Origin: a bacterium
GTDB taxonomy: Bacteria > Pseudomonadota > Alphaproteobacteria > Rhizobiales > Aestuariivirgaceae
Direction: 5' to 3'
Assembly: GCA_022842165.1 (NCBI GenBank)
Contig: JALHQC010000001.1
Location: 1-64,000 of the forward strand
Length of the DNA stretch: 64,000 nt
Shown here: piece by piece, positions 32,470 to 62,215 of the stretch
Position numbering within the stretch: the first letter of the stretch is position 1
How the letters are laid out: each line of letters starts with the position of its first letter
The notes under the pieces: model-generated
What the model was told of the DNA's origin: nothing
Database searches by the model: none
What the model saw: only the letters and a program-made list of their open reading frames with translations
Position numbers and translations under genes: made by a program

Positions 32470-32946
32470 ATGACCGAAGTCACCCTCTGCCTGTGGTACA
32501 ATGGCGATGCGGAAGAAGCCGCGCGCTTCTATGCCGAGACATTCCCCGACAGCAGCTTGGGCAAGATGCAGCCGGCGCCGGCGGATTTTCCGGGCGGCAA
32601 ACAGGGCGATCCGCTGGTGGTTCAGTTCACCGTGCTGGGCATTCCCTGCATCGGCCTCAACGGCGGGCCGATCTTCCGGCCCAACGAGGCCTTCTCCTTC
32701 GTCGTCTCGACGAAGGACCAGGCCGAGACCGACCGCTACTGGAACGCCATCGTCAACAACGGCGGCAAAGAGAGCGCCTGCGGTTGGTGCAAGGACAAAT
32801 GGGGCATCTCATGGCAGATCACGCCCAAGGTGCTGACCGACGCGATGAGCGCCGGCGGCGAAACCGCCCGCCGCGCGTTTGAGGCGATGATGCCGATGCA
32901 GAAGATCGACGTGGCGGCGATTGAGCGGGCGGTAAGGGGAGTGTGA
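32470..32946 (+). CDS. VOC-family (PhnB/UbiG-like glyoxalase fold) protein
   Basis: A 158-residue vicinal-oxygen-chelate fold protein. It starts TEVTLCLWYNGDAEEAARFY and contains FVVSTKDQAETDRYWNAIVN and CGWCKDKWGISWQITPKVL, the pattern of the PhnB-like or 3-demethylubiquinone-methyltransferase-like subgroup. No enzyme activity can be assigned. Immediately downstream the base composition drops sharply at the AT-rich island. Confidence 0.88.
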   Translation: MTEVTLCLWYNGDAEEAARFYAETFPDSSLGKMQPAPADFPGGKQGDPLVVQFTVLGIPCIGLNGGPIFRPNEAFSFVVSTKDQAETDRYWNAIVNNGGKESACGWCKDKWGISWQITPKVLTDAMSAGGETARRAFEAMMPMQKIDVAAIERAVRGV

Positions 32947-32967
32947 CGCGATGTACTGGCGGCGATC

Positions 32968-33924
32968 TTAGCCTATCTGAAGAGTCTTTTCGATCCTTGG
33001 AAGGCCAAATCTGATGAAAGACTTATCTGAACGCTCATTAAGATCAGCGAGTGTGCCTCGGCAGACCGCAATCAACAAGCAACAACTCTCATAGAACGAA
33101 ACAATTTCATCTTTGCTATTACAGTTGAAAGAATCGACCTTTACCTCTAGCCCACTAGCGATTTTAATCCTGTCAGCGATGGTTTGAACTGTTAAAGCGC
33201 TTTTATAGGGGAACCACACTCCGTATTTTTGTCTGTATTGAATGGAGTTGCGCATTGCTGATAGTTGATGAGCATTTGCACCGGCTCCGGATACGGCAGC
33301 TATGATTGTGTTTATTTCATTCTCTAGTGCTTTTTGTATTTTTGTCTCTAAGAGGCTATTGCTGATGATTAGCTTAGATTCAGAGAGGACCACACCTAGC
33401 CTTTTCCACATATGTTCATGGCTACCTCCAGAATTATTTTCGTAGGTCATAATAATTGCGTTATTTGAAACGTCGGCCTCTAATGTATATAGACCAGACT
33501 TGAACTTTGACGCTTCCGCAACTCCATACACATTTGCAGTATTGCGTAGCTTGAGCAATTCACTAGTCTCGAAGAACGAAGGGCTTACCCCCAATACTCT
33601 TAATAGTGCATGCGAATAGAATAATGTTGAATAATATAGCATCACTAGCGGCCACGCAGTGGACTTGGGTAAGTCTTGATACTGCCTAACGTTACAGAGC
33701 GACTCGTGTGCCGCAACACTGAATCGATTAATGTCACTACCAAAGCATTCAATAACTTCTCGGCTACTAATGTTTTCTAGTATTATTTGATTTGGTCTTG
33801 TCGAACTTGAAACAGCGTAGGTTCCATTATTGATCCACTCCCGGAGGGCAGCACGTGGTTGATCCGAAAGGGCACTTAATCCTGCCAACCATTTCATCCG
33901 AAACACGTCTCTATAGTCGGCCAT
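32968..33924 (-). CDS. Unknown protein, partner of the DGQHR-domain gene
   Basis: A 318-residue protein that I cannot assign to a family. The middle contains AWPLVMLYYSTLFYSHALLR, resembling the helical core of proteins with HEPN-like folds, but no convincing catalytic R-x4-6-H motif with the usual following helices is evident. It is cytosolic, with no signal or membrane anchor. Its ATG is 2 bp after the stop of the DGQHR gene, so the two form an operon. Strong AT bias and context suggest a transferred, possibly defence-related role. Confidence 0.75.
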   Translation of the reverse strand: MADYRDVFRMKWLAGLSALSDQPRAALREWINNGTYAVSSSTRPNQIILENISSREVIECFGSDINRFSVAAHESLCNVRQYQDLPKSTAWPLVMLYYSTLFYSHALLRVLGVSPSFFETSELLKLRNTANVYGVAEASKFKSGLYTLEADVSNNAIIMTYENNSGGSHEHMWKRLGVVLSESKLIISNSLLETKIQKALENEINTIIAAVSGAGANAHQLSAMRNSIQYRQKYGVWFPYKSALTVQTIADRIKIASGLEVKVDSFNCNSKDEIVSFYESCCLLIAVCRGTLADLNERSDKSFIRFGLPRIEKTLQIG

Positions 33925-33926
33925 GG

Positions 33927-34913
33927 TTAGTCCAAAATGGATTTTGATTTCAGTGCATCTGTGAATATTTTTGAGTAAGCAGTTGCACTATTCCCCACAG
34001 TTTTTGTGGAAGACACTTTAACTCTCAAGAGCATTTCGCGTACTACTTCAGCGAATTTTTCTGGTTCGTACTTCTTTCCGAACCTGTCTCGAACCCGCTG
34101 CGCAACATCCGGGAAAACCATCATTAAAGATCTGAAAACAACCGGGTTTCCGATTTTTATCTCGATTTTGCGCTTCTTTGACTCAGATAGCATTGCAATT
34201 AGATATGACGAGAGTACCTGATATATCGCTGATGTATCTGCCTCACCAAATAACACAAGAAGTGGTTTAACGGCCGCATTAAATGTTACTCTCGAAATAT
34301 CTCCTGCACGCTTCTTGGCTGGAGTCATTTTCCCTAGCAATGGACTGTCAATTTGAGTGTCAAAGAGATCGAATATTTGTCCCAGTCGAGTCTCTACGTC
34401 GTTTTGGTACTCAGCAAGTTTGCGAATATCTAGGAGCAACTCATTTGGCACTGGTTTCTGCTTTGTATTGATATCAATAAACAACCGTGACTCGTCAGTT
34501 CTAGACAAGCCATTGTAGATTACCACAGGTACTCGAATATCAGTCTTCGCCAGCTTGAAGGCGTAGACCCGGTGCTGTCCATCGAGGATCAAGAAAGACT
34601 TAGGTGTATCCTTGAAACTTATAGTTTTTAGTCGAGAATTATATTGAAAGTCAGCTGCTGACTGAGCGGACAGGACAACTGATGTGGGAATGGTAGCCAT
34701 TCCGGCATCTATAAAGTCTGCAATCTCTTGCGCACGTTGCTTATTCAGAAGTCTCTGAAACCCTTCTTCGGGATCTTCATCGCGGCTGATGACAAAACAT
34801 GTTTTCGTTAGGACCTCAGATGGCATCGCCAACTGGTAGAATCGGTACTTGCCTTGGGTTATTAAGCTTGCTGCAAAACTGAGTGGAGAGTTGCTCTGTT
34901 CTGATTTGGCCAC
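33927..34913 (-). CDS. DGQHR-domain protein (DndB-like)
   Basis: A 328-residue protein with the diagnostic ILDGQHRVYAF motif (about residues 111-121), followed by FIDINTKQKPV. DGQHR-domain proteins include DndB of phosphorothioate systems and DpdB of 7-deazaguanine DNA modification, and are common in defence islands. It starts at a GTG (34913) with GGGAG upstream. No dnd or dpd genes are nearby. The next gene follows after 2 bp. AT-rich composition marks it as part of the island. Confidence 0.85.
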   Translation of the reverse strand: MAKSEQSNSPLSFAASLITQGKYRFYQLAMPSEVLTKTCFVISRDEDPEEGFQRLLNKQRAQEIADFIDAGMATIPTSVVLSAQSAADFQYNSRLKTISFKDTPKSFLILDGQHRVYAFKLAKTDIRVPVVIYNGLSRTDESRLFIDINTKQKPVPNELLLDIRKLAEYQNDVETRLGQIFDLFDTQIDSPLLGKMTPAKKRAGDISRVTFNAAVKPLLVLFGEADTSAIYQVLSSYLIAMLSESKKRKIEIKIGNPVVFRSLMMVFPDVAQRVRDRFGKKYEPEKFAEVVREMLLRVKVSSTKTVGNSATAYSKIFTDALKSKSILD

Positions 34914-35025
34914 TTGCAGTCTCCCAAATAGATTCGAAAATTCGCTGATCGATCATATGATGGAAGGTTACTATCGGCACCTAGGTATCTGATGGTCGTC
35001 AACATTCATAGAATTGGCCTCATGC

Positions 35026-35274
35026 TCAGATTTCACAATTCTCTACTTTATGGGACTCGAACTCGGCAATAGACTGCGCCAGCCGCGCCGCATTGGCGGG
35101 GCTGCGCAGCAGATGGAGGGTTTCCTCCCAGGAGGAGAACTCCTCCAGCGACATCAGCACGGCGGCGGGCTTTCCCCGGTCGCGGGTGATGATGACAGGC
35201 TCGCGGTCCTCCGTCACCCGGTCAAGGATGTTCGCCAGATCGTTCCGGAACTCACTGTCTGAAACTCTTTTCAT
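35026..35274 (-). CDS. Phd/YefM-family antitoxin
   Basis: An 82-residue antitoxin: MKRVSDSEFRNDLANILDRV, then EPVIITRDRGKPAAVLMSLEEF and SSWEETLHLLRSPANAARL, closely following the YefM pattern. The N-terminal half would bind DNA and the C-terminal half a RelE/YoeB-type toxin. The ATG at 35274 matches the family length; an earlier ATG (35292) adds six residues. No toxin gene follows; the AT-rich island begins about 20 bp downstream. Confidence 0.88.
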   Translation of the reverse strand: MKRVSDSEFRNDLANILDRVTEDREPVIITRDRGKPAAVLMSLEEFSSWEETLHLLRSPANAARLAQSIAEFESHKVENCEI

Positions 35275-35292
35275 GGTGCGACTGAACGCCAT

Positions 35293-35556
35293 TACGTTGA
35301 GGAATTCAAGTGGGGCTCCCCCTCTCCCCCACAGGGGGAGAGGATAAAGGTGAGGGGGTGCCGCTGCGGGGATGGTGCTGGAGTTGGAGGTAGCCATCCC
35401 CTTCACCCCGCCCTCTCCCCCTTCGGGGGCGAGGGGGAAGGCAAGCGCCCTCATCCGGCCTGTCGGCCACCTTCTCCCACGAAGTCGCGGGAGAAGGCAT
35501 AAGAGGCGGGCCGGCCTCACCCCCTGACGCGAGGAGCCGGAGCCCACGCCCTGCAC
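35293..35556. repeat. Intergenic palindromic repeats, no gene
   Basis: Within the 350-bp gap between yefM and the PRC-barrel gene, CCTCTCCCCC-ACA-GGGGGAGAGG (35321-35343) and CTTCTCCC/GGGAGAAG (35471-35496) are inverted repeats of the same type as those at 23.8 kb. Sequence such as CCCTCATCCGGCCTGTCGGCC fits known alphaproteobacterial dispersed repeats. Short open frames here are repeat-encoded and not credible genes. Confidence 0.7.
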
Positions 35557-35592
35557 AAAAAAGCCACGGCGCCCTTGAGGAGAGCGCCGCGG
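35557..35592 (-). terminator. Rho-independent terminator of the PRC-barrel gene
   Basis: On the minus strand, CGGCGC (plus 35584-35589) pairs with GCGCCG (plus 35567-35572) and is followed by TGGC and six T (plus AAAAAA, 35557-35562). It lies about 35 bp after the stop of the PRC-barrel gene. Confidence 0.75.
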
Positions 35593-35624
35593 CCGGTCGA
35601 GATCGTGACCCGTGTCAGGCTTGC

Positions 35625-36437
35625 TTACTGGGCAGGCTGCTCGGTGGTCGTCGTGGTGCCGGTGCCAGTTCCAGTGCCCATGCCGGTGGCGGGAGCGTTC
35701 GGATCGCTCTCGGCATAGCTGCGGCTGGTGCGGTTATAGGCCGGCGCGTCTTCCAGGATCTGCTTGGTGGCGTTCACCACCAGGCGCTGGCTGTCGCCGT
35801 CCTGAACCATGTTCACCGCGTCGACCGAGACGGCCACGTCCTTCTCGCCGATGCCGAGGAAGCCGCCGACGCCCAGAATGATGGCGCGGGTGTCGCCCGA
35901 GGCCGAGAGGATCATGTCGTTCACTTCGCCGATGTCCTCGCCATTCGCGTCATAGACGCGCTTGCCGATGAAGTCGCTGGCGGTCATGAACTGCGTGCCG
36001 TTGAAACGGTCCGCCGGAACGATCAGGCTGGTGCCGCTCATCGTTGTCGAGGTGGTGGAGGCGTTCGGATCGACCGGGGCGGTGGAGCCCGTCGAATCGG
36101 TCGTCGTGCTGGTGCCCGACTGGCCGGTCGTGGTGGTGGTGGTGCTGGCGTTCGGATCCATCGTCGTGCCGGACTGGCCGGTCGTCGTGGTGTTGGCGTT
36201 CGGGTCCATCGTGGTGTCCGACTGGCCGGTCGTCGTGGTCGTGTTCTGGTCCATCGTCGTGCCGGACTGGCCGGTCGTCGTGGTGTTGTTCTGCTTCATG
36301 CAGGCGGGATCATTGGCGTTCACCGCCTGCGTGCAGTCCACCTGGGCAGATGGGGCGGGCGCCGTTTCCTGTGCGATCGCGGGCGTGAAGGCAAGAATAG
36401 ACAGCGCTGTGCTCAGCGCGAAAACGCTCTTGTTCAT
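35625..36437 (-). CDS. Secreted PRC-barrel protein with Thr-rich repeats
   Basis: A 270-residue protein. A Sec signal peptide (about 1-22, ending AIAQ) precedes a low-complexity region (about 48-130) of four related repeats built on TTTTGQSGTTMD. A PRC-barrel domain (about 150-215) reads FIGKRVYDANGEDIGEVNDM. The tail is Gly/Thr-rich. PRC-barrel proteins of this kind occur in the periplasm of many Hyphomicrobiales, with unclear function. The ATG at 36437 gives the normal signal peptide. A strong terminator follows. Confidence 0.8.
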   Translation of the reverse strand: MNKSVFALSTALSILAFTPAIAQETAPAPSAQVDCTQAVNANDPACMKQNNTTTTGQSGTTMDQNTTTTTGQSDTTMDPNANTTTTGQSGTTMDPNASTTTTTTGQSGTSTTTDSTGSTAPVDPNASTTSTTMSGTSLIVPADRFNGTQFMTASDFIGKRVYDANGEDIGEVNDMILSASGDTRAIILGVGGFLGIGEKDVAVSVDAVNMVQDGDSQRLVVNATKQILEDAPAYNRTSRSYAESDPNAPATGMGTGTGTGTTTTTEQPAQ

Positions 36438-50874: not shown

Positions 50875-51141
50875 GTGAACAGTTCGGAATTTGAGACGCT
50901 TTCGCGAACTGAGGGGGCCAGTCCCGTTAGCCTCTATTGCATGGGAAGCCTGGTGGCGGACGAAGCTTCGCGCAACGGCTTTGCGGATTTCGCCCGCTCG
51001 ATGGAGGCCGCGCTCGGCAAGTTCCTCTCGGGGCTGCCACGTGACGACCAGTGGCAAGCACTCCGGCTGTCTTATGAAATGGCATTGGGCAGCGAAGAAC
51101 CCGCCCCGCCCCGCCTCAGGCTGGTGTATTCGCGGGATTAG
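50875..51141 (+). CDS. Hypothetical small protein
   Basis: An 88-residue open frame with a GTG start (50875) preceded by GGAGGGTTCGAG. The sequence is hydrophilic, with no signal or membrane segment; the middle (DFARSMEAALGKFLSGL) looks helical. I do not recognise a family. The last 4 bp overlap the end of the convergent mttB gene. Whether it is expressed is uncertain. Confidence 0.5.
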   Translation: MNSSEFETLSRTEGASPVSLYCMGSLVADEASRNGFADFARSMEAALGKFLSGLPRDDQWQALRLSYEMALGSEEPAPPRLRLVYSRD

Positions 51142-52661
51142 AAGTCGGTCGCCTCGCCACCCTCGCGGATGCGCCTGGCGACGAAGAGGTCGATTGCTTC
51201 AGCAGCCGCCGGGTCCATGTAAGGCTCGGCATATTCGGCCAGCGCCTGCTTCCACAAGGCGTTGGCTTTTTTCTCCGCCGTCGGCGAGCCCGCCGCCTCC
51301 CAGTTGGGAAAACTCCGCCAGTCGGAGATCAGCGGCTGGTAGAAGGCCGTCGCGTAGAGCTGGAGCGTATGCTTTGCGCCAAAGAAGTGGCCGCCGGGGC
51401 CAACCTCCTCCATCGCCGAAAAGGCCATCGAGTCGTCGTCCACCACCACGGGCTTGAGGAACTCCTGCACCATCTGCAAGAGATCGATATCGACCGCGAA
51501 TTTCTCGTAGGACGCGACGAGGCCGCCCTCCATCCAGCCTGCCGAATGCTGGATGAAGTTGCCGCCGCCCATGATGGCGCCCCACAGCGAAAAGACGGTC
51601 TCATAGGCTGCCTGCGCGTCGACGCTGTTGGCGGCATTGGTGCTCGACGTGCGGTAGGGAAGCTTGTAGCGCCGCGCCATCTGCCCGCCGATGATGCAGG
51701 ACTTCATGTATTCGGGCGTGCCGAATGCCGGCGCGCCTGACTTCATGTCGACGTTGGAAGTGAACCCGCCATAGACGAAGGGCGCGCCGGGATTGGAAAG
51801 CTGCGACAGCGCCAGGCCCGCCAGCGCTTCGGCGTTCTGCAGCACGATCGCGCCTGCGACAGTCACCGGTGCCATGGCGCCGAGCAGCGTAAAGGGTGTG
51901 ACCACGCAGATCTGGTTCAGCCGCGCCATCTCGATGATGCCCATCGCCATCGGCGCATCGAGCTTCAGGGGCGAGTTGGTGTTGATCACCGTGTAGGCCG
52001 ATGGTTCGCGCAGCATCTGTTCGTGACTGATTCCGCGCGCCAGGCGCACGATTTCCAAGCCGTCGAACAGCCGGGCGCGGCCGGTGGCGTAGACGAAGGG
52101 CACCTTGTCGGAATAGCGCATCTTGTTGCGCGTGATGTGGAGATGGCGGATCGAGGCATGAACGTCGAGCGCGTCCACGGAGGCACCGCCCGCAGTGTGA
52201 ATGGTGTTGAAGAACTGCGAGAGCTTCACGAAGTTGCCGGCATCTTCCAGCGTACCAGGGCGCCTGCCGCGATCGAGATCGGAGCAGTTCGGCGGCCCGC
52301 CCACCGGCGCGAATACGATCCAGTTTCCGCCAATGTGCAGGCTGTGGGCCGGATTGCGGGCGTGAAAAGTGAATTCGGCAGGCGGCGTCTTGAGGGCTTC
52401 CTCGATAATGTCGCGGCCGATCCGCACGCGCTCACCCTCGACGCGGGCGCCGGCTCTTGCCAGAATCTCTCGCGCCTCGGGCAGGAGGATATCCATGCCG
52501 ATCTCTTCCAGCACCTTCATCGACTGGCGGTGGATGGCCTCGATGTGATCGTCCGACAGAATGCGCGAAGGCTCCAGCGTCAGGCGAGGCTGGATCCAGG
52601 GCAATTGTTGCACCGGGTTGCGGGCTGCATCCATGCGGCGGCCGCGGCGTTGAACGCTCAT
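51138..52661 (-). CDS. MttB-superfamily corrinoid methyltransferase, non-pyrrolysine (paralog 1)
   Basis: A 507-residue member of the trimethylamine methyltransferase (MttB/MtgB) superfamily, which moves a methyl group from a quaternary or tertiary amine to a corrinoid protein. No in-frame TAG interrupts the gene, so it is the non-pyrrolysine type (relatives demethylate glycine betaine and similar compounds). Visible: GGFTSNVDMKSGAPAFGTPEY, EEVGPGGHFFGAKHTL. The N-terminus is Arg-rich (MSVQRRGRRMDAAR). Very similar to paralog 2. Last gene of the operon lysR-mttB-PfkB kinase-psuG-mttB; its start overlaps psuG by 4 bp. Confidence 0.9.
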   Translation of the reverse strand: MSVQRRGRRMDAARNPVQQLPWIQPRLTLEPSRILSDDHIEAIHRQSMKVLEEIGMDILLPEAREILARAGARVEGERVRIGRDIIEEALKTPPAEFTFHARNPAHSLHIGGNWIVFAPVGGPPNCSDLDRGRRPGTLEDAGNFVKLSQFFNTIHTAGGASVDALDVHASIRHLHITRNKMRYSDKVPFVYATGRARLFDGLEIVRLARGISHEQMLREPSAYTVINTNSPLKLDAPMAMGIIEMARLNQICVVTPFTLLGAMAPVTVAGAIVLQNAEALAGLALSQLSNPGAPFVYGGFTSNVDMKSGAPAFGTPEYMKSCIIGGQMARRYKLPYRTSSTNAANSVDAQAAYETVFSLWGAIMGGGNFIQHSAGWMEGGLVASYEKFAVDIDLLQMVQEFLKPVVVDDDSMAFSAMEEVGPGGHFFGAKHTLQLYATAFYQPLISDWRSFPNWEAAGSPTAEKKANALWKQALAEYAEPYMDPAAAEAIDLFVARRIREGGEATDF

Positions 52662-53578
52662 GATCTTTTCTCCGAAAGTGCGGCCGCAATTTGTGCGGCG
52701 ACAAGGGCATTGTGTCTGGCCAGCGCAATGTTGGCGGTGAGCGAGCGGCCAGATGTCACACTGGCGATTTCAGCGAGCAGGAAGGGGGTTACGTGTTTGC
52801 CGGTGATGCCGCCTGCCCTTGCCTTTGCCACCGCAGCCTCGATGACGGCCGCGATCTCCTCCGCGGGAATCTCGAAGGCTTCCGGAATGGGATTGGCAAC
52901 GACGACGCCGCCATTCAGGCCCATGGCCCATTTGGCGCGCAGCAGGTCGGCAATCTCGGCCGCGGAGTCGCAACGCATCGGCACGGCATGGCCGCTGGCG
53001 CGCGAATAGAAAGCCGGAAACTCATCGGTGCCAAAGCCGACCACGGGCACACCCAGCGTCTCCAGCGTTTCGAGGGTGAGCGCCAGATCGAGAATTGCCT
53101 TGGCGCCGGCGGTGACGACGGCCACGTTGCTGTTGGCGAATTCCGTCATGTCGGCCGAGATATCGAAGGTCTTCTCGGCGCCGCGATGCACGCCGCCGAT
53201 GCCGCCCGTTGCGAACACATGAATGCCCGCCATTGCCGCCAACCGCATGGTGGATGCGACGGTGGTTGCGCCATCGCGCTTCTGTGCCACCGCAAAGGGC
53301 AGATCACGCACCGAAACCTTGGCGATGCTGCGGCCTTCGCGGCCCAGGTATTGAAGCTCGTCGGGGGTCAATCCGATCTTCACCTCACCGCTCAGTATCG
53401 CGATCGTTGCCGGAATAGCGCCATTGTCGCGCACGATCTTCTCGACCTCGCGCGCGGTCTCCACGTTCTGCGGATAAGGCATGCCATGCGCGATGATCGT
53501 CGATTCGAGCGCCACGACAGCGGCACCCTTTTCAAGCGCGGTGCGAACGTCAGCATTGATGGATAGTTCAAAGGCCAA
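52658..53578 (-). CDS. psuG: Pseudouridine-5'-phosphate glycosidase
   Basis: A 306-residue PsuG/IndA-family enzyme. It has VVALESTIIAHGMPYPQNVE near residue 21 (metal and substrate site), GVHRGAEKTFDISADM, and VVTAGAKAILDLALTLETLE with the catalytic lysine. PsuG splits the C-C glycosidic bond of pseudouridine 5'-phosphate into uracil and ribose 5-phosphate. It lies 9 bp after the PfkB kinase gene, its normal partner in pseudouridine breakdown, and overlaps the following mttB gene by 4 bp. Confidence 0.92.
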   Translation of the reverse strand: MAFELSINADVRTALEKGAAVVALESTIIAHGMPYPQNVETAREVEKIVRDNGAIPATIAILSGEVKIGLTPDELQYLGREGRSIAKVSVRDLPFAVAQKRDGATTVASTMRLAAMAGIHVFATGGIGGVHRGAEKTFDISADMTEFANSNVAVVTAGAKAILDLALTLETLETLGVPVVGFGTDEFPAFYSRASGHAVPMRCDSAAEIADLLRAKWAMGLNGGVVVANPIPEAFEIPAEEIAAVIEAAVAKARAGGITGKHVTPFLLAEIASVTSGRSLTANIALARHNALVAAQIAAALSEKRS

Positions 53579-53587
53579 GGCTGAACC

Positions 53588-54502
53588 TCATGAGATGCCT
53601 GCAAGGTGGAACAGGGCTTGCCGGGTCATCGACGATGCCGCCGATTCGCGCGAGGACAGTTTCATCGATGCGGCAGCCTGACCTATCCGGGCAGCTGATT
53701 CCAGCGGCATTCCGTCAAGAATTCCGCACAGCAGACCGGCGACCGCTGCGTCTCCGGCACCGGTAACATCGGCCACGTCTGCAACCAGAAAGGGCGGAAC
53801 CTCAATGATGCCTGATCCGGAGGACACCAGTGCACCCTTACCGCCCTGGTGCATCACCACATTCGCGAAGCCCAGAAGATGCAGCTTTGCAATGGCGCGC
53901 GCCTCGTTCGCTTCACCGGTCATTGCCGCAATCTGCTGAAGGTTCGGCGTGATAGCAAAAACCGGCTGGATGCGCGTGAAGGACAGAAGCTTGCGGGCCT
54001 TGGGCACGGACACGGGTTCGACCGCCAGCCTGATGCCGCTTTCGGCGCTGAAGCGGCACAGCCAGTCCAGGCAAGCCGCCGGAATATTGCAGTCGGCGAC
54101 CAGCATGTCGGCCTCCCGCAGCCGCGCAGAAACACGGTCAAGCTGAGCTGGCGTCAGGGATTCGATGGCCTGCATATCGTTGATGGCGCTGATCAGTTCG
54201 CCCTTGCGGTCCAGCACCACGAGGTATGTTCCCGTGGCCAGGCGGCTGGTGACCGTCAAGCCAAGTTCGACGTTCGCTGCCGCGCAGGATTCGCGAACCA
54301 GCCGGCCATTCGCGTCTTCGCCCAGAACGGTCAGCAGGGAAACTCCATGCCCGAGCCGTGCGAGATTCTCCGCAATGTTGCGCCCGACGCCGCCGACCGA
54401 CACGGTAACGTCTCCAGGGTTCGATGTTCCGCCGATGAAGGCCCCGCTTGAGCGGCCCTTGATGTCGACATTCGCGCCGCCGATGACAATGACCCGTGCC
54501 AT
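53588..54502 (-). CDS. PfkB-family carbohydrate kinase, probable pseudouridine kinase
   Basis: A 304-residue ribokinase-fold kinase. The N-terminal signature is VIGGANVDIKGRSSGAFIGG, then GGVGRNIAENLARLG, and the C-terminal signature DVTGAGDAAVAGLLCGIL with the catalytic aspartate. Because psuG is next to it (9 bp gap), the likely role is phosphorylation of pseudouridine (PsuK) for psuG. It lies 6 bp after the mttB paralog 2 stop. Substrate specificity is inferred from neighbours. Confidence 0.85.
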   Translation of the reverse strand: MARVIVIGGANVDIKGRSSGAFIGGTSNPGDVTVSVGGVGRNIAENLARLGHGVSLLTVLGEDANGRLVRESCAAANVELGLTVTSRLATGTYLVVLDRKGELISAINDMQAIESLTPAQLDRVSARLREADMLVADCNIPAACLDWLCRFSAESGIRLAVEPVSVPKARKLLSFTRIQPVFAITPNLQQIAAMTGEANEARAIAKLHLLGFANVVMHQGGKGALVSSGSGIIEVPPFLVADVADVTGAGDAAVAGLLCGILDGMPLESAARIGQAAASMKLSSRESAASSMTRQALFHLAGIS

Positions 54503-54508
54503 GCCAGG

Positions 54509-56083
54509 TCAAAAATCCGTTGGCGCGCCGCCTTCGGACTTTCGCTTGTCGACGAAGGCGTTCAGTTCGTCCTTCACTGCGGCATCGATTGCGGGCTCCT
54601 GATAATCCGCCAGCGCCTGTTTCCAGACGGCGTTGGCCTTCTGCCAGGCTTCCGGCTTTCCGGCGGCGAGCCACTGCTGGTTGTTGCGCCAGTCGGAAAC
54701 GATCGGCGCGTAGAAGGCATTGGTGTAGCGCTGCAAGGTGTGCTGGGCGCCGAAGAAGTGCCCGCCGGGACCAACTTCGCGGATCGCCTCAACCCCTAGT
54801 GCGTCCTCTGTGGTTTCAAGGGGTTGCATGAATTCGCTCACCATCTGGATCAGGTCGCAGTCGAGAATGAATTTCTCGAAGCTCGCAACAAGGCCGCCTT
54901 CCAGCCAGCCTGCGCCATGCATGATGAGATTGCCGCCGCCCATGGTGAGGCCCCAGAGCGAGAAGACGCTTTCGTAAGCCGCCTGGGCATCGACTGTGTT
55001 GGCGGCACAGGTGTTCGATGTACGAAATGGCACGTTGTAACGCCTGGCGAGTTGCCCGCCGACGATCGTCGCCTTCATGTACTCGGGCGTGCCGAAGGCG
55101 GGAGCGCCCGACTTCATGTCGACATTCGACGTGAACCCGCCATAGATGACGGGGGCACCCTTCCGCACCAGCTGCGTAAAGGCCATGCCGGCCAAAGCCT
55201 CGGCATTCTGCTCGACGAGTGCGCCCGCAACGGTCACCGGAGCCATGGCGCCCGCCAGCGTGAAAGGGGTGATGCAGACGATCTGGTTGCGAGCCGACAT
55301 TTCGAGGATGCCGCGCAGCATTGGCGTATCGAGCTTCAAGGGCGAATTGGTGTTGATGATGGTGAAGAGCGAAGGTTCCCTCTCCAACTGCTCATGGCTG
55401 ATGCCGCGCGCAATGCGGGCGATCTCGATTGCGTCCTGGATACGTTCCTGACCCAGTGAGTAGGCATGAAAGGGCTTGTCGGTCAGCAATACGGCGTCGC
55501 GCAGCGCCTCGAGGTGGCGGATGGACGCATGGATATCGATCGGCTCCACCGGATAGCCCGAGAGGAAACCGATGCAATTGAAATACTGTGCCAGCTTCAG
55601 GAAATTGCGGTAGTCCGCATGATTGCCGGTGCGGCGTCCGCCATCCATGTCGGAAGCGTTGGGGGGGCTTGCAACGGTGCCGAACACCATGCTGTTGCCG
55701 CCGATCCGCTGGGTGTTTTCGGGGTTCCTCGCGTGAAAGCTGAACTCCGATGGCGCCGAGCGCATCAGTTCCTCGATCATCGCGGAATCGAAACGCACAC
55801 GCTCGCCTTCAACGCTGGCGCCCGCCTTCTTCAGCATGTCGCGCGCTTCGGGCAGCGTGAAGTCCATGCCGATCTCGGAGAGGACGCGGAGCGATGCCAG
55901 GTGAATCGATTCGAGCTCATCGGCCGAGACGATCTGCATCGGCGGGAAAGCCCGCGTGAGCTTGCGGCGCGGCAATTGCGGCACGGAGGCTCGTCCACTA
56001 CCGCCACCCCGGCGGCCACCGCCCTCGCGGCGCGAGCGCCTGGATGTTTCGGGGCTCGAAGTCTCGATGTCGAGATCGGTCAA
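54509..56083 (-). CDS. MttB-superfamily corrinoid methyltransferase, non-pyrrolysine (paralog 2)
   Basis: A 524-residue protein closely related to paralog 1: GGFTSNVDMKSGAPAFGTPEY and REVGPGGHFFGAQHTLQRY, with the same C-terminal GGAPTDF-type ending. The N-terminus (about 10-50) is Arg/Gly-rich (SRREGGGRRGGGSGRAS), probably disordered. No in-frame TAG is present. It overlaps the upstream lysR stop by 4 bp, and PfkB and psuG follow. Likely transfers a methyl group from an N-methyl compound to the corrinoid protein encoded at 61.5 kb. Confidence 0.9.
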   Translation of the reverse strand: MTDLDIETSSPETSRRSRREGGGRRGGGSGRASVPQLPRRKLTRAFPPMQIVSADELESIHLASLRVLSEIGMDFTLPEARDMLKKAGASVEGERVRFDSAMIEELMRSAPSEFSFHARNPENTQRIGGNSMVFGTVASPPNASDMDGGRRTGNHADYRNFLKLAQYFNCIGFLSGYPVEPIDIHASIRHLEALRDAVLLTDKPFHAYSLGQERIQDAIEIARIARGISHEQLEREPSLFTIINTNSPLKLDTPMLRGILEMSARNQIVCITPFTLAGAMAPVTVAGALVEQNAEALAGMAFTQLVRKGAPVIYGGFTSNVDMKSGAPAFGTPEYMKATIVGGQLARRYNVPFRTSNTCAANTVDAQAAYESVFSLWGLTMGGGNLIMHGAGWLEGGLVASFEKFILDCDLIQMVSEFMQPLETTEDALGVEAIREVGPGGHFFGAQHTLQRYTNAFYAPIVSDWRNNQQWLAAGKPEAWQKANAVWKQALADYQEPAIDAAVKDELNAFVDKRKSEGGAPTDF

Positions 56084-57012
56084 GATGTCTTTCCTTTTTC
56101 ACGATAGGCTTCGAGCGATGGATCATTGGCGATCTGCTTCACCAGCCAGTCTTCGAAGCGTTTGATCTTGGGCTTCATGCGATGCTCGGCATTGCAGGCG
56201 AAGAGCCAGTTGTGGCGATGCGGCACCTTCAGCGGAAAGGGCTGCACGAGCCGGCCCGTCTTGATTTCCTCGGTGGCAAAGGGGCCAATGGTCATGGCAA
56301 TGCCGCGGCCTTCGATGGCCGCTTCCTGCGCGAGAATATAGCTGTCGAAGGCGAGACGGTCGGACAGCTTGATGCCCTTGACACCCGCCTCTTCGAGCCA
56401 CAGGTGCCAGTCCTCCTCGGCGGTATAGACATAGAGCAGCTTGTGTTTCTTGAGATCCTCGGGCGTCTTCAGCGCGTTTGGCCCCTTCAGCAGTTCGGGC
56501 GAACAGATGGGTGTGAGCTTCGAGGTGAAGAGCGTGCGGTAATGATGGTCGGGAGAGCGGTTGCGGGCGAGGATCAGGCCCACGTCCACATTCTTCTCAT
56601 CGAAGTCCCAATCGAAATAGGAGGTCGAGAGCCGCACCTTCATGTCGGGATAGCGGCGTTCGAAGTCATGGAGCCGCGGGATCAGCCATTTCAGCGCCAC
56701 GGTCACATAGACCTGCACCGTTAGCTCGTTATCTGCTGCAGCGGGCTTCAAAGCACGGGTCTGGGCCTCGATCATGTCGAAGGCTTCGCGGATGGGCGGG
56801 AAGTAAGTGTGGCCGGCCTGCGTGAGTTCGGCCCGCCTTGCATCGCGGCGGAACAGCTGCACGCCGAGGCGCTGCTCCAGCGATTTCACCTGATGGCTCA
56901 CTGCCGAGCGCGTGATGCCAAGCTCGCCGGCCGCCAGCCGGAAGCTGCCGAGCCGGGCGGCCGCTTCGAAGGCGGTGAGCGCGCGGAGTGGAGGCAAGTC
57001 GCGTCTGGCCAA
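56080..57012 (-). CDS. LysR-family regulator (GcvA-like), first gene of the mttB-psu operon
   Basis: A 310-residue regulator. The N-terminal helix-turn-helix reads LPPLRALTAFEAAARLGSFR, then AAGELGITRSAVSHQVKSLEQ, as in GcvA, followed by the effector domain. It overlaps mttB paralog 2 by 4 bp, so it is the first gene of the operon it presumably controls. A 17-bp palindrome directly at its start codon region suggests autoregulation and control of the divergent mttB3. Confidence 0.9.
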   Translation of the reverse strand: MARRDLPPLRALTAFEAAARLGSFRLAAGELGITRSAVSHQVKSLEQRLGVQLFRRDARRAELTQAGHTYFPPIREAFDMIEAQTRALKPAAADNELTVQVYVTVALKWLIPRLHDFERRYPDMKVRLSTSYFDWDFDEKNVDVGLILARNRSPDHHYRTLFTSKLTPICSPELLKGPNALKTPEDLKKHKLLYVYTAEEDWHLWLEEAGVKGIKLSDRLAFDSYILAQEAAIEGRGIAMTIGPFATEEIKTGRLVQPFPLKVPHRHNWLFACNAEHRMKPKIKRFEDWLVKQIANDPSLEAYREKGKTS

Positions 57013-57017
57013 GATTC

Positions 57018-57034
57018 CTCACCAATGATTGGTG
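57018..57034. promoter_or_regulatory. Perfect 17-bp palindrome, candidate operator for the LysR regulator
   Basis: TCACCAATGATTGGTGA is an exact inverted repeat with 8-bp arms around one base, 5 bp upstream of the lysR start and 158 bp from the divergent mttB3 start. It contains T-N11-A half-sites expected of LysR-type operators. Its position suits autorepression. Confidence 0.6.
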
Positions 57035-57092
57035 ACACCCTCTTAGCACTATTGAAATTGAAGGGTTAAGAGGCGAGTGTAGCAAGCGGCTG

Positions 57093-57106
57093 CCAAACTT
57101 GGTGAA
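57093..57106. promoter_or_regulatory. Second related half-site upstream of mttB3
   Basis: CCAA-AC-TTGG (57093-57102), extended as TTGGTGA (57099-57105), repeats one arm of the palindrome at 57018. It lies nearer the mttB3 start. Two related sites at different distance suggest an activation site and a recall site, but this is inferred. Confidence 0.4.
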
Positions 57107-57192
57107 AAAAACTAACGCATCGTGCAAAAGATAAGCCGTTGAAACCCAGCCGCGAAAAAGCGGATATAGGGACCATATCAGGAGTCTTGAAA

Positions 57193-58770
57193 ATGAGTGC
57201 AGTGGAAGATCTCTCCCGCCGCCGCGGCGGCCGTGAAGCCCGCCGTGCGCTACGGTCCCGCCCCATTCCGATGGCGGAAGCGGCCGTTCGCCCCGGCATG
57301 GTGGGAGGACAGTACAAGCCACTGACCGATCATGACATGCAGCGCATTCACGAAACTGCGCTGAAGCTTCTGGAAACCGTGGGGCTTGCGCAGGCGATTC
57401 CGACCTGCATCGAGGCAATGGTGCCGCGCGGGGCCTTCCTCAACGCGCAAGGCCGGTTGTGCATTCCGCGAAGCCTCGTTGAGGATATTCTCGCGAGTTG
57501 CGCCCGGAATTTTGTGCTGCATGGCCGCGACCAGCGCCACGACATGGAGCCTTCCGGCAACCGCGTCTACTTCGGCACGGCGGGTGCCGCCGTCCACATC
57601 GTGGAAGCGGCCACCCGCACGTACCGCGAGTCCTATCTTGCAGACCTTTATGACGCGGCCCGCATCGTCGATAATTGCGACAACATCCATTTTTTCCAGC
57701 GCTGCCTGACAGCGCGCGACATGATCACCGGGCACGACCTCGACATCAACACCATGTATGCCTGCCTTGCGGGCACATCGAAGCATGTTGGCACCTCGAT
57801 GGTCGATCCGGCGCATGTCGATGAATGCCTGCAGATGCTGCACTTCATCGCGGGCGGCGAAGCCAAGTGGCGCGAGCGGCCCTTCGTGTCGCAGTCGAAC
57901 TGCTTTGTCGTTCCGCCGATGAAGTTTGCTGAAGACGCCTGCCGATGCCTTGAAGCGGCGGCGCGTGGCGGCATGCCGGTTCTGCTGCTGTCCGCGGCGC
58001 AGGCTGGTGCGACATCGCCCGCAGCGCTGGCCGGCACCGTCGTTCAGGCGGTCGCCGAATGCCTCGCGGCACTCGTCTATATCAATTGCGTGGTGCCGGG
58101 TGCGATTGCCATCTGGGGGCCGTGGCCCTTCGTGTCGGACCTTCGCACCGGCGCGATGTCCGGCGGTTCGGGCGAACAGGCGCTCATCACGTCGGCCTGT
58201 GCGCAAATGGGGCACTTCTACAATCTGACGGTTGGCTCCGCCGCCGGCATGTGCGACTCCAAGATGCCGGACATGCAGGCCGGTTATGAAAAGGGCGTAA
58301 CGGCTGGCATCTCGGCCATGACCGGCATCAACCTGATGTATGAGTCAGCCGGCATGCATGCTTCGCTCCTCGGCTTCAGTCTCGAAAGCCTGCTGATCGA
58401 CAACGACATGCTGGGCTCGATCAACCGCAATGTCCGCGGCATCGAGGTCAATGACGAAACGCTGTCGCTCGACGTGATCACCGATGTCTGCGTGAACGGT
58501 CCCGGCCACTATCTCGGCAACGAGCAGACGCTGAGCCTGATGCAGAAGGAATATGTCTATCCGCAGATTGCCAACCGCATGAGCCCCAAGGAATGGGCCG
58601 AGGCCGGAAAGCCCGATCTCGTGGAACGTGCCACCGCCCGGAAGATGGAAATCCTCACCACCTACTACCCCGACTATCTGCCGTGGGAGATGGACCAGGT
58701 GATCCGTCAGAACCACGACATCAAGCTGCCACGCTCGATGATGGAGCCGGGCGACCCGCGCTGGGCCTGA
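57193..58770 (+). CDS. MttB-superfamily methyltransferase, divergent (paralog 3)
   Basis: A 525-residue protein of the same superfamily but clearly different from paralogs 1 and 2. The N-terminal extension is again Arg-rich (DLSRRRGGREARRALRSRP). Then come YKPLTDHDMQRIHETALKLL and CDSKMPDMQAGYEKGVTAGI, and it ends LPRSMMEPGDPRWA. No in-frame TAG. The ATG at 57193 is preceded by AGGAG. It heads a plus-strand run with the Fe-S, methyltransferase-like and GFA genes. Substrate unknown; perhaps a different methyl donor from the paralogs. Confidence 0.87.
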   Translation: MSAVEDLSRRRGGREARRALRSRPIPMAEAAVRPGMVGGQYKPLTDHDMQRIHETALKLLETVGLAQAIPTCIEAMVPRGAFLNAQGRLCIPRSLVEDILASCARNFVLHGRDQRHDMEPSGNRVYFGTAGAAVHIVEAATRTYRESYLADLYDAARIVDNCDNIHFFQRCLTARDMITGHDLDINTMYACLAGTSKHVGTSMVDPAHVDECLQMLHFIAGGEAKWRERPFVSQSNCFVVPPMKFAEDACRCLEAAARGGMPVLLLSAAQAGATSPAALAGTVVQAVAECLAALVYINCVVPGAIAIWGPWPFVSDLRTGAMSGGSGEQALITSACAQMGHFYNLTVGSAAGMCDSKMPDMQAGYEKGVTAGISAMTGINLMYESAGMHASLLGFSLESLLIDNDMLGSINRNVRGIEVNDETLSLDVITDVCVNGPGHYLGNEQTLSLMQKEYVYPQIANRMSPKEWAEAGKPDLVERATARKMEILTTYYPDYLPWEMDQVIRQNHDIKLPRSMMEPGDPRWA

Positions 58771-58777
58771 CCTGCCG

Positions 58778-59443
58778 ATGGAACACCCGGTGCTGACGGC
58801 AATCCGGCGGGCGGCTTTCACGCCGCTCGGATGGTTCACGCCGCAGCCTGAGGATCGCGTGCCCGGCGAAACCAAGTTCGTGATCCTGATCGGCAACGCC
58901 GGCCCGGACATGTTTCGCCGCTTCGCCCGCGAGCGCGATCCATCGCATGACGCCATGGATGACTGGACCCGCGCGGCCGCCGGCTCTCTTGCCCGCGAGC
59001 TTGATGCTCGTGCCGTCTATCCCTTCGACATGCATCCGCCGTGGCCCTTCCTCACTTGGGCACGGCGCGGCGGAGCAGGCCATACCTCGCCACTTGGGCT
59101 CAATATCCATCCGACATACGGATTGTGGCATGCCTACCGCGCTGCGCTGCTGTTTCCAGTCCAGTTCGATCTGCCGACGCCTAAAACTGGCGCGCATCCG
59201 TGCCAGTCCTGCGAACTGAAGCCGTGCCTCGGCGCCTGCCCGGTCTCGGCTTTCAACGGAACGCGCTATGACGTCGATGCCTGTGCCAGACACGTCGATT
59301 CTAAGCTTGGGCAGGCGTGCAGGGACATAGGCTGTCTTGCGCGCCATGCCTGTCCTGTGGGACAAAGGTTTGCCTATGCGCCCGCACAGGCTGAGTTCCA
59401 CATGCGGTCGTTCCTTGCCGCGCGACAGAAAGCCTCGTCCTGA
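58778..59443 (+). CDS. 4Fe-4S ferredoxin-type protein of the methyltransferase cluster
   Basis: A 221-residue protein with a ferredoxin-like cluster motif CQSCELKPCLGACP (about residues 145-158) and a second cysteine set CRDIGCLARHACPVG, similar in spacing to the Fe-S domain of QueG-type proteins. The N-terminal part (1-130) is unassigned. The start lies 7 bp after mttB3 and the gene ends just before the homocysteine-methyltransferase-like gene. Reduction of the corrinoid cofactor is a plausible role but not shown. Confidence 0.8.
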   Translation: MEHPVLTAIRRAAFTPLGWFTPQPEDRVPGETKFVILIGNAGPDMFRRFARERDPSHDAMDDWTRAAAGSLARELDARAVYPFDMHPPWPFLTWARRGGAGHTSPLGLNIHPTYGLWHAYRAALLFPVQFDLPTPKTGAHPCQSCELKPCLGACPVSAFNGTRYDVDACARHVDSKLGQACRDIGCLARHACPVGQRFAYAPAQAEFHMRSFLAARQKASS

Positions 59444-60355
59444 ATGTATCAGCATGTTGCCGCGAAGCTTGCCCGGGGCGACGTCATCATCCTCGATGGC
59501 GGAACCGGCACCGACATCCAGCGGCGCGGCGTGCTGATGAGCGGCAACACCTGGTGCGCCGAAGCCAATCTCAGCCATCCGGAGATCGTCAAAGAGGTTC
59601 ACGAGGATTACATCAAGGCGGGTGCGGACATCATCATCGCCAATACGTTTGCCACCAGCGCCCTGCTGTTCAACGCCCTGGGCCGCGATGACGAACTCCT
59701 CGCGATCGACCGCGCGGCTGTAACGATCGCCAGGGACGCCGCCGCGGGAAAGCCTGTCGCCGTGGCGGGGTCGATGTCCACCATGCGGCCGGTGCAGCCG
59801 GGTAGCGACCGGACACAGAAGCAGCGCGAATGGCCTGAGGCGCAGGCCCGCGCGCTGTTCAGACGCAAGGCAGACAACCTCGCCGCCGCGCATGTCGACC
59901 TTATCATGATGGAGATGATGCGCGATGTGGATTATTCGCTCTGGGCGACCGAGGCTGCGATGGCGACAAGGCTTCCCGTCTGGATCGGCATTTCGGCGGA
60001 GCGGCGCGAGGACGGCAAGATCGTCGGTTTTGGCCGCGAGGACCAGTTACTCGATGATGTAGCGCGCGCGCTTGCCGCAACCAAGCCTGCACTCATCAGC
60101 ATCATGCACACCTCGCCCAACGATACAGACGAGGCAATCGACATCTTGAAGCGGTATTGGAAAGGGCCAATCGGCGCCTACCCCGAGAGCGGCTATTTCA
60201 GAATGCCGGAGTGGACCTTCGTCGACATCATCCCTCCGGAAGAGCTGGTCGAAAGAACCCGTATCTGGCGGCAGAAGGGCGTCACGGCTTTTGGCGGATG
60301 CTGCGGGCTGGGGCCTGAGCATATCCATGCTCTTTCCCGGGAGTACACAGCATGA
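59444..60355 (+). CDS. Homocysteine S-methyltransferase-family protein with altered zinc site
   Basis: A 303-residue TIM-barrel protein of the betaine-homocysteine/S-methylmethionine methyltransferase family: VIILDGGTGTDIQRRG (N-terminus), ADIIIANTFATS, and the C-terminal GGCCGLGPEHI with two zinc cysteines. The third ligand, usually in a G-x-N-C motif, is not seen; the matching stretch reads ISIMHTSPND. Starts directly at the stop of the Fe-S gene. It may accept the methyl group leaving the corrinoid pathway, or act on another thiol. Confidence 0.85.
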   Translation: MYQHVAAKLARGDVIILDGGTGTDIQRRGVLMSGNTWCAEANLSHPEIVKEVHEDYIKAGADIIIANTFATSALLFNALGRDDELLAIDRAAVTIARDAAAGKPVAVAGSMSTMRPVQPGSDRTQKQREWPEAQARALFRRKADNLAAAHVDLIMMEMMRDVDYSLWATEAAMATRLPVWIGISAERREDGKIVGFGREDQLLDDVARALAATKPALISIMHTSPNDTDEAIDILKRYWKGPIGAYPESGYFRMPEWTFVDIIPPEELVERTRIWRQKGVTAFGGCCGLGPEHIHALSREYTA

Positions 60356-60735
60356 AGACGGGTTCCTGCCTCTGCGGCGCGGTGAAATACGAAGTGCATG
60401 GTGCCTTGCGGCCGGTCATCGCCTGCCACTGCATCCAGTGCCGGAAGCAGACCGGCAACTACTGGTCGTCAACAGCGGCAAAGGACAGCGAACTCATCAT
60501 CACCGCGGATCGCAGCCTCAAATGGTACCGGTCCAGCGACGAGGCCAAACGCGGCTTCTGTCAGGAGTGCGGGTCGGTGCTGTTCTGGAAAAGGGACGGG
60601 AGCAAGGATACCTCGATCACGGCGGGCACCATCGATGGTCCAACCGGCGCTCCGCTCGAGGGACATATCTTCTGCGAGAGCGCCGGTGATTACTATGAGA
60701 TCGCCGGTGGGGCATACCGGCTGGACCGCTGGTAG
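60352..60735 (+). CDS. GFA-family (CENP-V/GFA domain) protein
   Basis: A 127-residue zinc-binding protein with the GFA cysteine set: GSCLCGAVKYEV, CHCIQCRK and FCQECGSVLFW. The family was named after glutathione-dependent formaldehyde-activating enzyme. In a demethylation cluster it could help handle formaldehyde, but GFA domains are also found in unrelated settings. It overlaps the upstream gene by 4 bp and ends the plus-strand run. Confidence 0.87.
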   Translation: MKTGSCLCGAVKYEVHGALRPVIACHCIQCRKQTGNYWSSTAAKDSELIITADRSLKWYRSSDEAKRGFCQECGSVLFWKRDGSKDTSITAGTIDGPTGAPLEGHIFCESAGDYYEIAGGAYRLDRW

Positions 60736-60854
60736 GCCCGGGCGAGGAGCCGTTCCAGCTTCCGGCTTTCTGTGCCGGCTGCCCGAGCATCGCATTCCCG
60801 GCATGAAGTTTCGCTGAGACGAGCGATCAGCTTCCTGTCAGACTGGACGAAGCG

Positions 60855-61490
60855 TCACGCGCGGCGCCCAAGGTCTGTCTCGAGTTCGCCATATCCCGTG
60901 AACCGGTACTCATAGCCAAGACCAAGCCTCTTGGCGGCCGCCATGGCTTTTTTAGCAAGCTCTTCGTCGCGCGTCTGCGCCAGATAGACGATCTTGCGAT
61001 AGTTTCCGAAATACATCGGCAGCAATTCGGGGTGGCGGTCGAGGCCCAGGCCAACCCAGATCAGCTTGTCGAAGTGCTTGGCCAGATAGTCGGTCAGATA
61101 AAACGACGTGACATCGTCGTCGGCATGGCGCGCGAACTCTGCGTTGCCAGAAAAGAACGCATAGCAATGCGGCCCAGCGATGCGCTCGATACCTTCCTCT
61201 ACCAAGAGCTGATCGAGCATGCCGCCCGTTCCGCAATCGCCGTAGAGCACGAAGATCGACTTGTAGCGGCCCTTCGCCTCGCGAATTTTCTCGCGTAACG
61301 CGGGCACGATCCTGTCGGGCGTGTTGTGCCACTTCGCAGGCAGGCACTGGAGGTCGAAGGCCTGCCAGCGGTTGCGCTCGATCAGATCCACGATCTCGCG
61401 CGCCAAAGCACCGCAAGCCAGGAGAAGAACCTCCCCCTTTCCTGGCTTGAACTCGAATTCGTCAGAAGGCTTGAGATTGACGAGGGTCAA
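60855..61490 (-). CDS. DUF1638 domain protein
   Basis: A 211-residue DUF1638 protein with conserved cysteine segments LLACGALAREI, YGDCGTGGMLDQ and GPHCYAFFSG, which could bind a metal or the corrinoid. DUF1638 genes are repeatedly found beside mttB-like and corrinoid-protein genes, and this one follows the corrinoid-protein gene by 23 bp. Its biochemical role is not known. Cytosolic, no membrane segment. Confidence 0.85.
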   Translation of the reverse strand: MTLVNLKPSDEFEFKPGKGEVLLLACGALAREIVDLIERNRWQAFDLQCLPAKWHNTPDRIVPALREKIREAKGRYKSIFVLYGDCGTGGMLDQLLVEEGIERIAGPHCYAFFSGNAEFARHADDDVTSFYLTDYLAKHFDKLIWVGLGLDRHPELLPMYFGNYRKIVYLAQTRDEELAKKAMAAAKRLGLGYEYRFTGYGELETDLGRRA

Positions 61491-61513
61491 TTGCGGACCC
61501 CTTTCGCGTAGCC

Positions 61514-62215
61514 TCAGCCGGCTGCCATCTGGTTGTGCTTCCTCGCCATGTAGCTCTTGGCGGTTTCAACCGCCACGGCCGCATCGCGGCAATAGGCGTC
61601 GGCGCCAACGGCCTTGGCGAATTCCTCGTTCAGAGGCGCACCACCGACCAGCACGATATAGTCATCGCGCATGCCCTTCTCCTTCATGGTGTCGATCACG
61701 ACCTTCATGTAGGGCATCGTCGTCGTCAGCAGCGCCGACATGCCGAGAATGTCCGGCTTGTGCTCTTCGATCGCCGCCAGATATTTCTCGACCGGGTTGT
61801 TGATGCCGAGATCGATCACTTCGAAGCCGGCACCTTCCATCATCATGCCGACGAGGTTCTTGCCGATATCGTGAATGTCGCCTTTCACCGTGCCGATCAC
61901 CATCTTGCCCTGGCGCGGTGCGCCGGTAGCAATCAGCAGCGGGCGCAGGATGAACATGCCGGCCTTCATCGAGTTGGCGGCCAGCAGCACCTCGGGAACG
62001 AAAAGAATGCCGTCGCGGAAATCGACGCCGACGATGCGCATGCCTTCGACGAGCGCCTCGGTCAGCACCCGGTACGGCGCCCAGCCACGGCCCAGCAGGA
62101 TGTGAACCGCCGCCTCGACCTCTTCCTTCAGGCCATCATAAAGATCGTCATGGACCTGCTGAACCAGCTCCTCGTCGTTGAGGGAGTTCAGATCAAGTTC
62201 GCCTTCATCGCTCAT
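61514..62215 (-). CDS. Corrinoid (B12-binding) methyl-carrier protein
   Basis: A 233-residue MtbC/MttC/MtgC-type protein. N-terminal helical cap domain (about 10-100, FVPEVLLAANSMKAGM) followed by a cobalamin-binding Rossmann domain with the lower-ligand motif GTVKGDIHDIGKN, then LGINNPVEKYLAAIE and MSALLTTTMPYM. It is the only corrinoid carrier seen in the window and would serve all three MttB paralogs. The ATG at 62215 is the normal start; it precedes DUF1638 in the same operon. Confidence 0.93.
   Translation of the reverse strand: MSDEGELDLNSLNDEELVQQVHDDLYDGLKEEVEAAVHILLGRGWAPYRVLTEALVEGMRIVGVDFRDGILFVPEVLLAANSMKAGMFILRPLLIATGAPRQGKMVIGTVKGDIHDIGKNLVGMMMEGAGFEVIDLGINNPVEKYLAAIEEHKPDILGMSALLTTTMPYMKVVIDTMKEKGMRDDYIVLVGGAPLNEEFAKAVGADAYCRDAAVAVETAKSYMARKHNQMAAG

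Follow-up and report, generated by a model that had tools for sequence, protein, structure and literature searches.

The closest described counterpart of the locus analyzed here is the aerobic MtgBCDE system. In Ruegeria pomeroyi, MtgC and MtgD serve, together with MtgB, the use of glycine betaine, as established by mutants and proteomics (PMC12478193, PNAS 2025), and a single genome can carry as many as seven MttB-type genes beside mtgC and mtgD (PMC12478193). According to the available parts of PMC12478193 and PMC5764234, the system in relatives comprises MttB-family demethylases and one corrinoid protein that also serves a split methionine synthase, in addition to RamA and DUF1638, which are linked to reactivation; DUF1638 is tied by genetics to B12 reactivation in Phaeobacter inhibens (PMC5764234, in its available part). 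Here we analyzed a 64,000-nucleotide stretch of bacterial DNA, hereafter the window (positions 1-64,000 of contig JALHQC010000001.1, GCA_022842165.1), which belongs to a draft genome of 4.3 Mb in 117 contigs (99.27% complete) and carries at 51138-62215 a locus with three MttB-superfamily genes (MttB1 to MttB3) and a gene for a corrinoid protein. The locus is a variant of this MtgBCDE/split methionine synthase system of aerobes, and its component that deserves experiment is a small Fe-S protein.

Like the systems of R. pomeroyi, P. inhibens and Sinorhizobium meliloti, the locus combines MttB-family genes with a stand-alone corrinoid protein that carries the DxHxxG motif and whose gene adjoins that of a DUF1638 protein, and the genome codes separately for MtgD, an MtgE module and a RamA-type activase. 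The MtgD candidate (methyltetrahydrofolate:corrinoid methyltransferase) lies on contig C36, with a score of 378 bits against NF005719 (cut-off 259), and adjoins the RamA-type activase (RACo_C_ter) and a PF13769 gene. The MtgE-like protein is encoded at C1:68377-69210, roughly 6 kb from the corrinoid gene and just outside the window, with a score of 464 bits against the betaine-homocysteine methyltransferase model NF005718 (cut-off 338). As is usual, though not obligatory, in this system, the draft genome yielded neither a classical MetH nor a MetE: the corrinoid protein of the window accounts for its only PF02607 match, and PF01717 gave no match in a search that matches 10 of 14 control genomes. 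The aerobic setting and the multiplicity of MttB paralogs, five in this genome, are already known and are not the novelty. Compared to the described systems, the parts are here split over contigs C1 and C36, a psuK-psuG pair lies within the MttB operon, and there are an extra MttB3, a homocysteine-methyltransferase-like paralog with an altered zinc site and the Fe-S protein.

Altogether, the locus is most probably the hub, with MtgC at its centre, of a cobalamin-dependent system for methyl transfer in an aerobe. Every MttB paralog would demethylate an N-methylated amine of its own, probably a quaternary one, and load the methyl group onto Co(I) of the only corrinoid protein, from which MtgD (C36) would pass it to tetrahydrofolate for one-carbon oxidation. 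Run in reverse with MtgE (C1), the same corrinoid protein would make methionine, a route proposed because neither MetH nor MetE was detected. The active Co(I) state of the corrinoid would be attained or maintained with the help of RamA (C36), DUF1638 and, as we propose, the small Fe-S protein with its predicted CblC/QueG-like fold. In relatives, others have demonstrated how MtgBCD and the split methionine synthase function; the substrates here we infer. Sequence analysis itself shows the gene set and its conservation, the presence of one corrinoid protein, the fold predicted for the Fe-S protein and the co-occurrence of the latter with the corrinoid protein. Several observations weigh against the proposed hub. 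The draft state (117 contigs) makes the absences not absolute, and no transporter gene was seen in the locus. In addition, no gene for methylenetetrahydrofolate reductase (MTHFR) was seen beside the MtgD candidate on C36, unlike in S. meliloti and Paracoccus, and the genome matches MTHFR once in full and once weakly (30.5 bits).

The preliminary description of this DNA had read the region as a locus for corrinoid-dependent demethylation whose MttB paralogs lack pyrrolysine, which is supported, and all genes that it named at 51138-62215 are present (three MttB, the GDIHDIGKN corrinoid protein, DUF1638, and the homocysteine-methyltransferase-like, Fe-S and GFA proteins); psuK-psuG between MttB2 and MttB1 and a GcvA-type LysR regulator had been missed. 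Its statement that no methyltetrahydrofolate:corrinoid methyltransferase is seen holds within the locus and fails for the genome, given the candidate on C36. The new final acceptor suggested from that absence was therefore rejected, with MtgD and RamA on C36 and the MtgE-like gene close to the corrinoid gene. That the locus is an oddity in an aerobe, as it had been taken to be, is not supported, given the MtgB/C/D-dependent use of glycine betaine in R. pomeroyi (PMC12478193).

A search for the gene set in other genomes, as had been suggested, revealed that the block recurs in whole or large part in related genomes, with protein identities of 41-98%, and therefore is not due to chance. With MttB1 as the query, genome contigs yielded 17 loci, of which 9 to 11 contain large parts of the block by tblastn, depending on the number of genes required; the remaining loci lie on short contigs or hold more distantly related MttB genes. 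The corrinoid protein keeps DIHDIGKN and is 78-97% identical to those of six relatives. Among 199 genomes of the order, MttB (threshold 1e-60) was found in 76, the corrinoid protein (1e-70) in 80, and both in 75; some of the MttB and corrinoid-protein rows in the trees and neighbourhood surveys come from fragmentary contigs.

Corrinoid methyltransferases lose Co(I) to oxygen. The Fe-S protein, which matches no Pfam family above cut-off, has eight cysteines that are invariant in 11 aligned rows, as for two [4Fe-4S] clusters, the last of them (C192) being followed by 29 residues to the end. Structure prediction gave mean predicted local distance difference test (pLDDT) values of 65.4 for model 1 and 82.5 for model 2 (11 rows). 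Fold comparison, by re-examination of the highest Foldseek chains (199 and 303), revealed a predicted cobalamin-binding nitroreductase-like domain as in QueG, reductive dehalogenases and CblC (MMACHC), the model aligning with MMACHC over 177-193 of 221 residues. The protein shares eight cysteines with the class III B12/[4Fe-4S] proteins, in which a conserved Tyr lies above the corrin ring (PMC4646009, in its available part). Compared to QueG as described there, it has only 221 residues, lacks the C-terminal alpha-helical repeat domain and differs in cysteine spacing; unlike the class III proteins, it is tied to corrinoid methyltransferase genes, the QueG-family gene of this genome sitting separately on contig C9. 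Tentatively, and with slightly less than even confidence, we read it as a new branch of the B12/[4Fe-4S] proteins of the reductive-dehalogenase/QueG/CblC fold, which would act as a dedicated cobalamin reductase or loader and let corrinoid methyltransferases run in aerobic Hyphomicrobiales and Paracoccus. A role as cobalamin chaperone or dealkylase, which would supply cobalamin to the corrinoid protein in the way human MMACHC serves methionine synthase and would not reduce Co(II), appears doubtful, because the eight-cysteine ferredoxin part resembles an electron path, which MMACHC is without (PMC4646009, in the same part).

At the sequence level, the 11 rows of the Fe-S family, aligned by hhalign to 14 rows of QueG, gave a probability of 77.6 (E 1.9e-5), against 0.1% when only the N-terminal parts were compared. 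In 60 runs with shuffled N-terminal columns of QueG, the mean score was 40.5 and the best 44.7, with three runs at 44.0 or above, compared to the real score of 43.8. As the shuffled score nearly equals the real one, the score comes from the ferredoxin cysteines, and the candidate proof by sequence that the protein is QueG-like was rejected. Moreover, NapG-type ferredoxin models (NCBIfam) match 10 of the 11 members (best E 2.3e-5), better than the QueG model (9 of 11, best E 4.8e-4), the window protein scoring far under the cut-off for both. These results, together with the annotation “ferredoxin” in S. meliloti (across the three plasmid records seen, the protein is named so or “hypothetical protein”), would agree with a mere ferredoxin that supplies RamA with electrons and does not hold cobalamin. 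Such a role is unlikely, since the alignable MMACHC structure is itself without a ferredoxin part and the MMACHC family is matched weakly by all 11 members (best E 0.0017; the members are related and so not independent). In a search of the family against the PDB by hmmsearch, 9 of the 12 listed matches are QueG or MMACHC, all matches being weak (best E 0.028).

The proposed cobalamin reductase or loader also draws on its distribution. The Fe-S protein (threshold 1e-20) was found in 57 of the 199 genomes, 52 of which also have the corrinoid protein; its gene lies within 10 kb of the corrinoid gene in 23 of the 57 and within 10 kb of MttB in 20 of the 57, the latter using 22 MttB places only. 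It directly follows mttB on S. meliloti pSymB and in Paracoccus aminovorans, and in Methylibium a partial copy, which aligns at five of the eight cysteines, lies by a row of cobalamin biosynthesis genes. Against the proposed role stand, besides the origin of the QueG score and the better NapG matches, the 28 of 80 corrinoid-protein genomes that have no Fe-S protein, which is thus not obligatory, the five of 57 genomes with the Fe-S protein and no corrinoid protein, and the single stop in nine of the 57 matched stretches; the Fisher test used for co-occurrence ignores kinship, and the case for a B12 domain comes down to the predicted fold, the weak MMACHC matches and the gene neighbourhood. Term searches found no mention of the protein in PMC12478193 and no fitting one in the available part of PMC5764234, and no title or abstract on it was found among open-licence papers, among the matches listed. 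It is apparently undescribed and looks built to hold B12; we infer its cobalamin binding and its role.

The homocysteine-methyltransferase-like protein is encoded separately from MtgE and is far from solved relatives (best E 2e-18). In all nine orthologs examined, IMHT or IMHS replaces GANC, which contains the first of the cysteines that we take to be zinc ligands, and the GGCCG pair is kept; by contrast, GANC is kept in all five MtgE-type proteins examined, and the MtgE of this genome keeps the first cysteine. The acceptor or donor of the homocysteine-methyltransferase-like protein may differ. This gene is the remnant of the acceptor idea, according to which the protein would hand the methyl group to a new acceptor. 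The altered site and the separation from MtgE speak for such a transfer, which is nevertheless quite improbable, as the normal acceptor route through MtgD and MtgE is coded in the genome and the neighbouring His may stand in for Cys.

MttB1, MttB2 and MttB3 are open frames with no stop inside and no in-frame TAG, as first described, and in MttB3 a Met aligns with pyrrolysine 334 of MttB (alignment to 7xcl); the in-frame TAG/pyrrolysine 334 of the trimethylamine-specific MttB is thus absent. MttB1 and MttB2 are 59% identical, yet fall in separate clades, whereas MttB3 is 21-24% identical to the other four paralogs of the genome. Of these, a fourth lies on contig C51 (L010, 1622-11197) after a cytochrome P450 gene and near sarcosine oxidase subunits, and a fifth on contig C14 (L011, 8400-14060) near genes for a solute-binding protein of DctP type (tripartite ATP-independent periplasmic, TRAP) and a LysR-type protein. 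The paralogs of the locus resemble MtgB, MtpB, MtcB and MtyB of Desulfitobacterium and Eubacterium as MttB-superfamily members without pyrrolysine. For MtgB, docking predicts a betaine pocket of Tyr94, Asn199, Arg309 and His345 (PMC6855144, in its available part). At the positions of Arg309, His345 and Asn199, MttB1 and MttB2 retain the MtgB residues, with Ala or Gly in place of Tyr94, whereas MttB3 has neither the Arg nor the His, so that none of the three has the full predicted pocket. The substrates of MttB1 and MttB2 are probably carboxylated and betaine-like, and that of MttB3 is probably without carboxylate.

Outside the genus of this organism, a gene of the dimethylglycine-dehydrogenase-like cluster, typed as a four-domain oxidase (one of the nine row genes is annotated), adjoins MttB2 or lies one gene off in nine of 16 rows. 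These nine rows speak for the proposed hub, and the other seven, which have no such oxidase alongside, count against it; five of the seven have a LysR-MttB3 arrangement instead. Near a MttB3-like gene (47%) on the R. pomeroyi megaplasmid (L038, 8944-18264) lie two genes for flavin adenine dinucleotide (FAD)-dependent oxidoreductases, one typed GcvT/SoxA-like, and an aminotransferase gene, as well as a divergent sulfoacetaldehyde-acetyltransferase-like gene (401 bits, below the cut-off of 620). Taurine-betaine as the substrate of MttB3 was dropped, the latter match being too weak. Near MttB on S. meliloti pSymA, L035 (11571-12875) encodes an M24-family protein related to the dimethylsulfoniopropionate (DMSP) lyase DddP, with 311 bits, under the cut-off of 600.

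PsuK and PsuG, encoded between MttB2 and MttB1, look like genuine pseudouridine-breakdown enzymes from their conserved residues. PsuG keeps, in the 4gij alignment, the positions of E. coli PsuG that we presume to be catalytic, and all six motif patterns are present. In PsuK, N14, D16, S30, G41-V42, N45, Y97, M114 and D256 are identical to the aligned pseudouridine-contacting residues of E. coli PsuK (listed in the available part of PMC9247573), and the NCBI pseudouridine kinase model gives 157 bits, below its cut-off of 540. Unlike in E. coli, the two genes share one operon with MttB genes, and no transporter gene was seen alongside. The LysR-MttB2-psuK-psuG-MttB1 unit is tight: at most of the junctions examined, neighbouring genes overlap or stand no more than a dozen bases or so apart. 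Most likely, the presence of psuK-psuG in one operon with MttB2 and MttB1 in this genus reflects a link of shared regulation between separate pathways.

Alternatively, MttB2-psuK-psuG-MttB1 might form a pathway that degrades N-methylated pseudouridine arising in RNA turnover: MttB would demethylate the base, and the resulting pseudouridine would be phosphorylated by PsuK and split by PsuG. The tight operon and the conserved ligand and motif positions would agree with this pathway, as would the proximity of the genes: psuG was found in 66 of the 199 genomes, and it lies within 10 kb of an MttB, counted among the MttB matches listed, in five, which are all five sampled genomes of this genus. Outside the genus, psuG is also commoner in genomes with MttB1/2-type genes (at least 55% identity to MttB1) than in others (19/34 versus 42/160), by a Fisher test that ignores kinship. 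However, 15 of these 34 genomes give no psuG match, psuG is near MttB in none of the 61 other psuG genomes among the listed matches, the relatives of MttB2 often adjoin dimethylglycine-dehydrogenase-like genes (the nine of 16 rows above), and one locus (L020) carries MttB2-MttB1 without psuK-psuG. Moreover, the pocket residues R354, H389 and N244 are identical in all nine psu-linked and all 16 other MttB2 rows (L020 and L028 MttB2 left out; L019 equals L059). Eight sites separate the two sets under the cut-offs used, none of them a named pocket residue, one (390) adjoining His389. As the separating sites spare the named pocket residues, psuK-psuG probably marks no new substrate. Overall, the methylated-pseudouridine route is very improbable. 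Some psuG/psuK and homocysteine-methyltransferase frames were split or missed by open reading frame picking (e.g., in L028) and dropped before the counts. No title or abstract on an MttB-psuG link was found among open-licence papers, among the matches listed. Two loci of the genus (L057 and L058) have psuK-psuG without an adjoining MttB1, and the two psu genes are joined in one continuous, fusion-like frame in L058 (10204-11976, on the reverse complement of the locus).

The genes of the locus are listed below. LysR, MttB2, psuK, psuG and MttB1 follow each other in this order on the minus strand, and MttB3 and the Fe-S, homocysteine-methyltransferase-like and GFA genes on the plus strand; the DUF1638 gene comes after the corrinoid gene on the minus strand. 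The start of MttB1 overlaps the psuG stop by 4 bases, as does the start of MttB2 the LysR stop. Elsewhere in the window, G+C is 0.539 at 32001-36000, compared to 0.61-0.64 in the other 4-kb blocks.

Table 1. Genes of the corrinoid methyl-transfer locus, with positions in the window.
Feature	Position	Strand	Evidence
MttB1, MttB-superfamily methyltransferase, 507 aa	51138..52661	-	PF06253 652 bits; no pyrrolysine codon
psuG, pseudouridine-5'-phosphate glycosidase	52658..53578	-	PF04227 429 bits; best solved relative 4gij, E 6e-108
psuK, pseudouridine kinase (PfkB family)	53588..54502	-	PF00294 155 bits; best solved relative 7vkp, E 5e-40
MttB2, MttB-superfamily methyltransferase, 524 aa, TTG start	54509..56083	-	PF06253 668 bits
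LysR-family regulator, GcvA type	56080..57012	-	NF008352 302 bits, cut-off 288
MttB3, divergent MttB-superfamily methyltransferase, 543 aa	57139..58770	+	PF06253 351 bits
Small Fe-S protein, 221 aa, predicted CblC/QueG/RdhA-like fold, then 8-Cys ferredoxin part	58778..59443	+	
Homocysteine-S-methyltransferase-like protein without first zinc cysteine	59444..60355	+	PF02574 (S-methyl_trans) 165 bits
GFA-family protein	60352..60735	+	PF04828 78 bits
DUF1638 protein	60855..61490	-	PF07796 97 bits
Corrinoid protein, MtgC type, 233 aa	61514..62215	-	PF02310 and PF02607 (B12-binding, B12-binding_2); GDIHDIGKN

The upkeep of Co(I) in air by aerobes has been put down to RamA and DUF1638, the latter without a settled role in the available parts of PMC12478193 and PMC5764234. 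With its predicted CblC-like B12 fold, two predicted Fe-S clusters and presence alongside corrinoid genes in many genomes, the Fe-S protein is a direct candidate as well for keeping the methyl-transfer system active in air.

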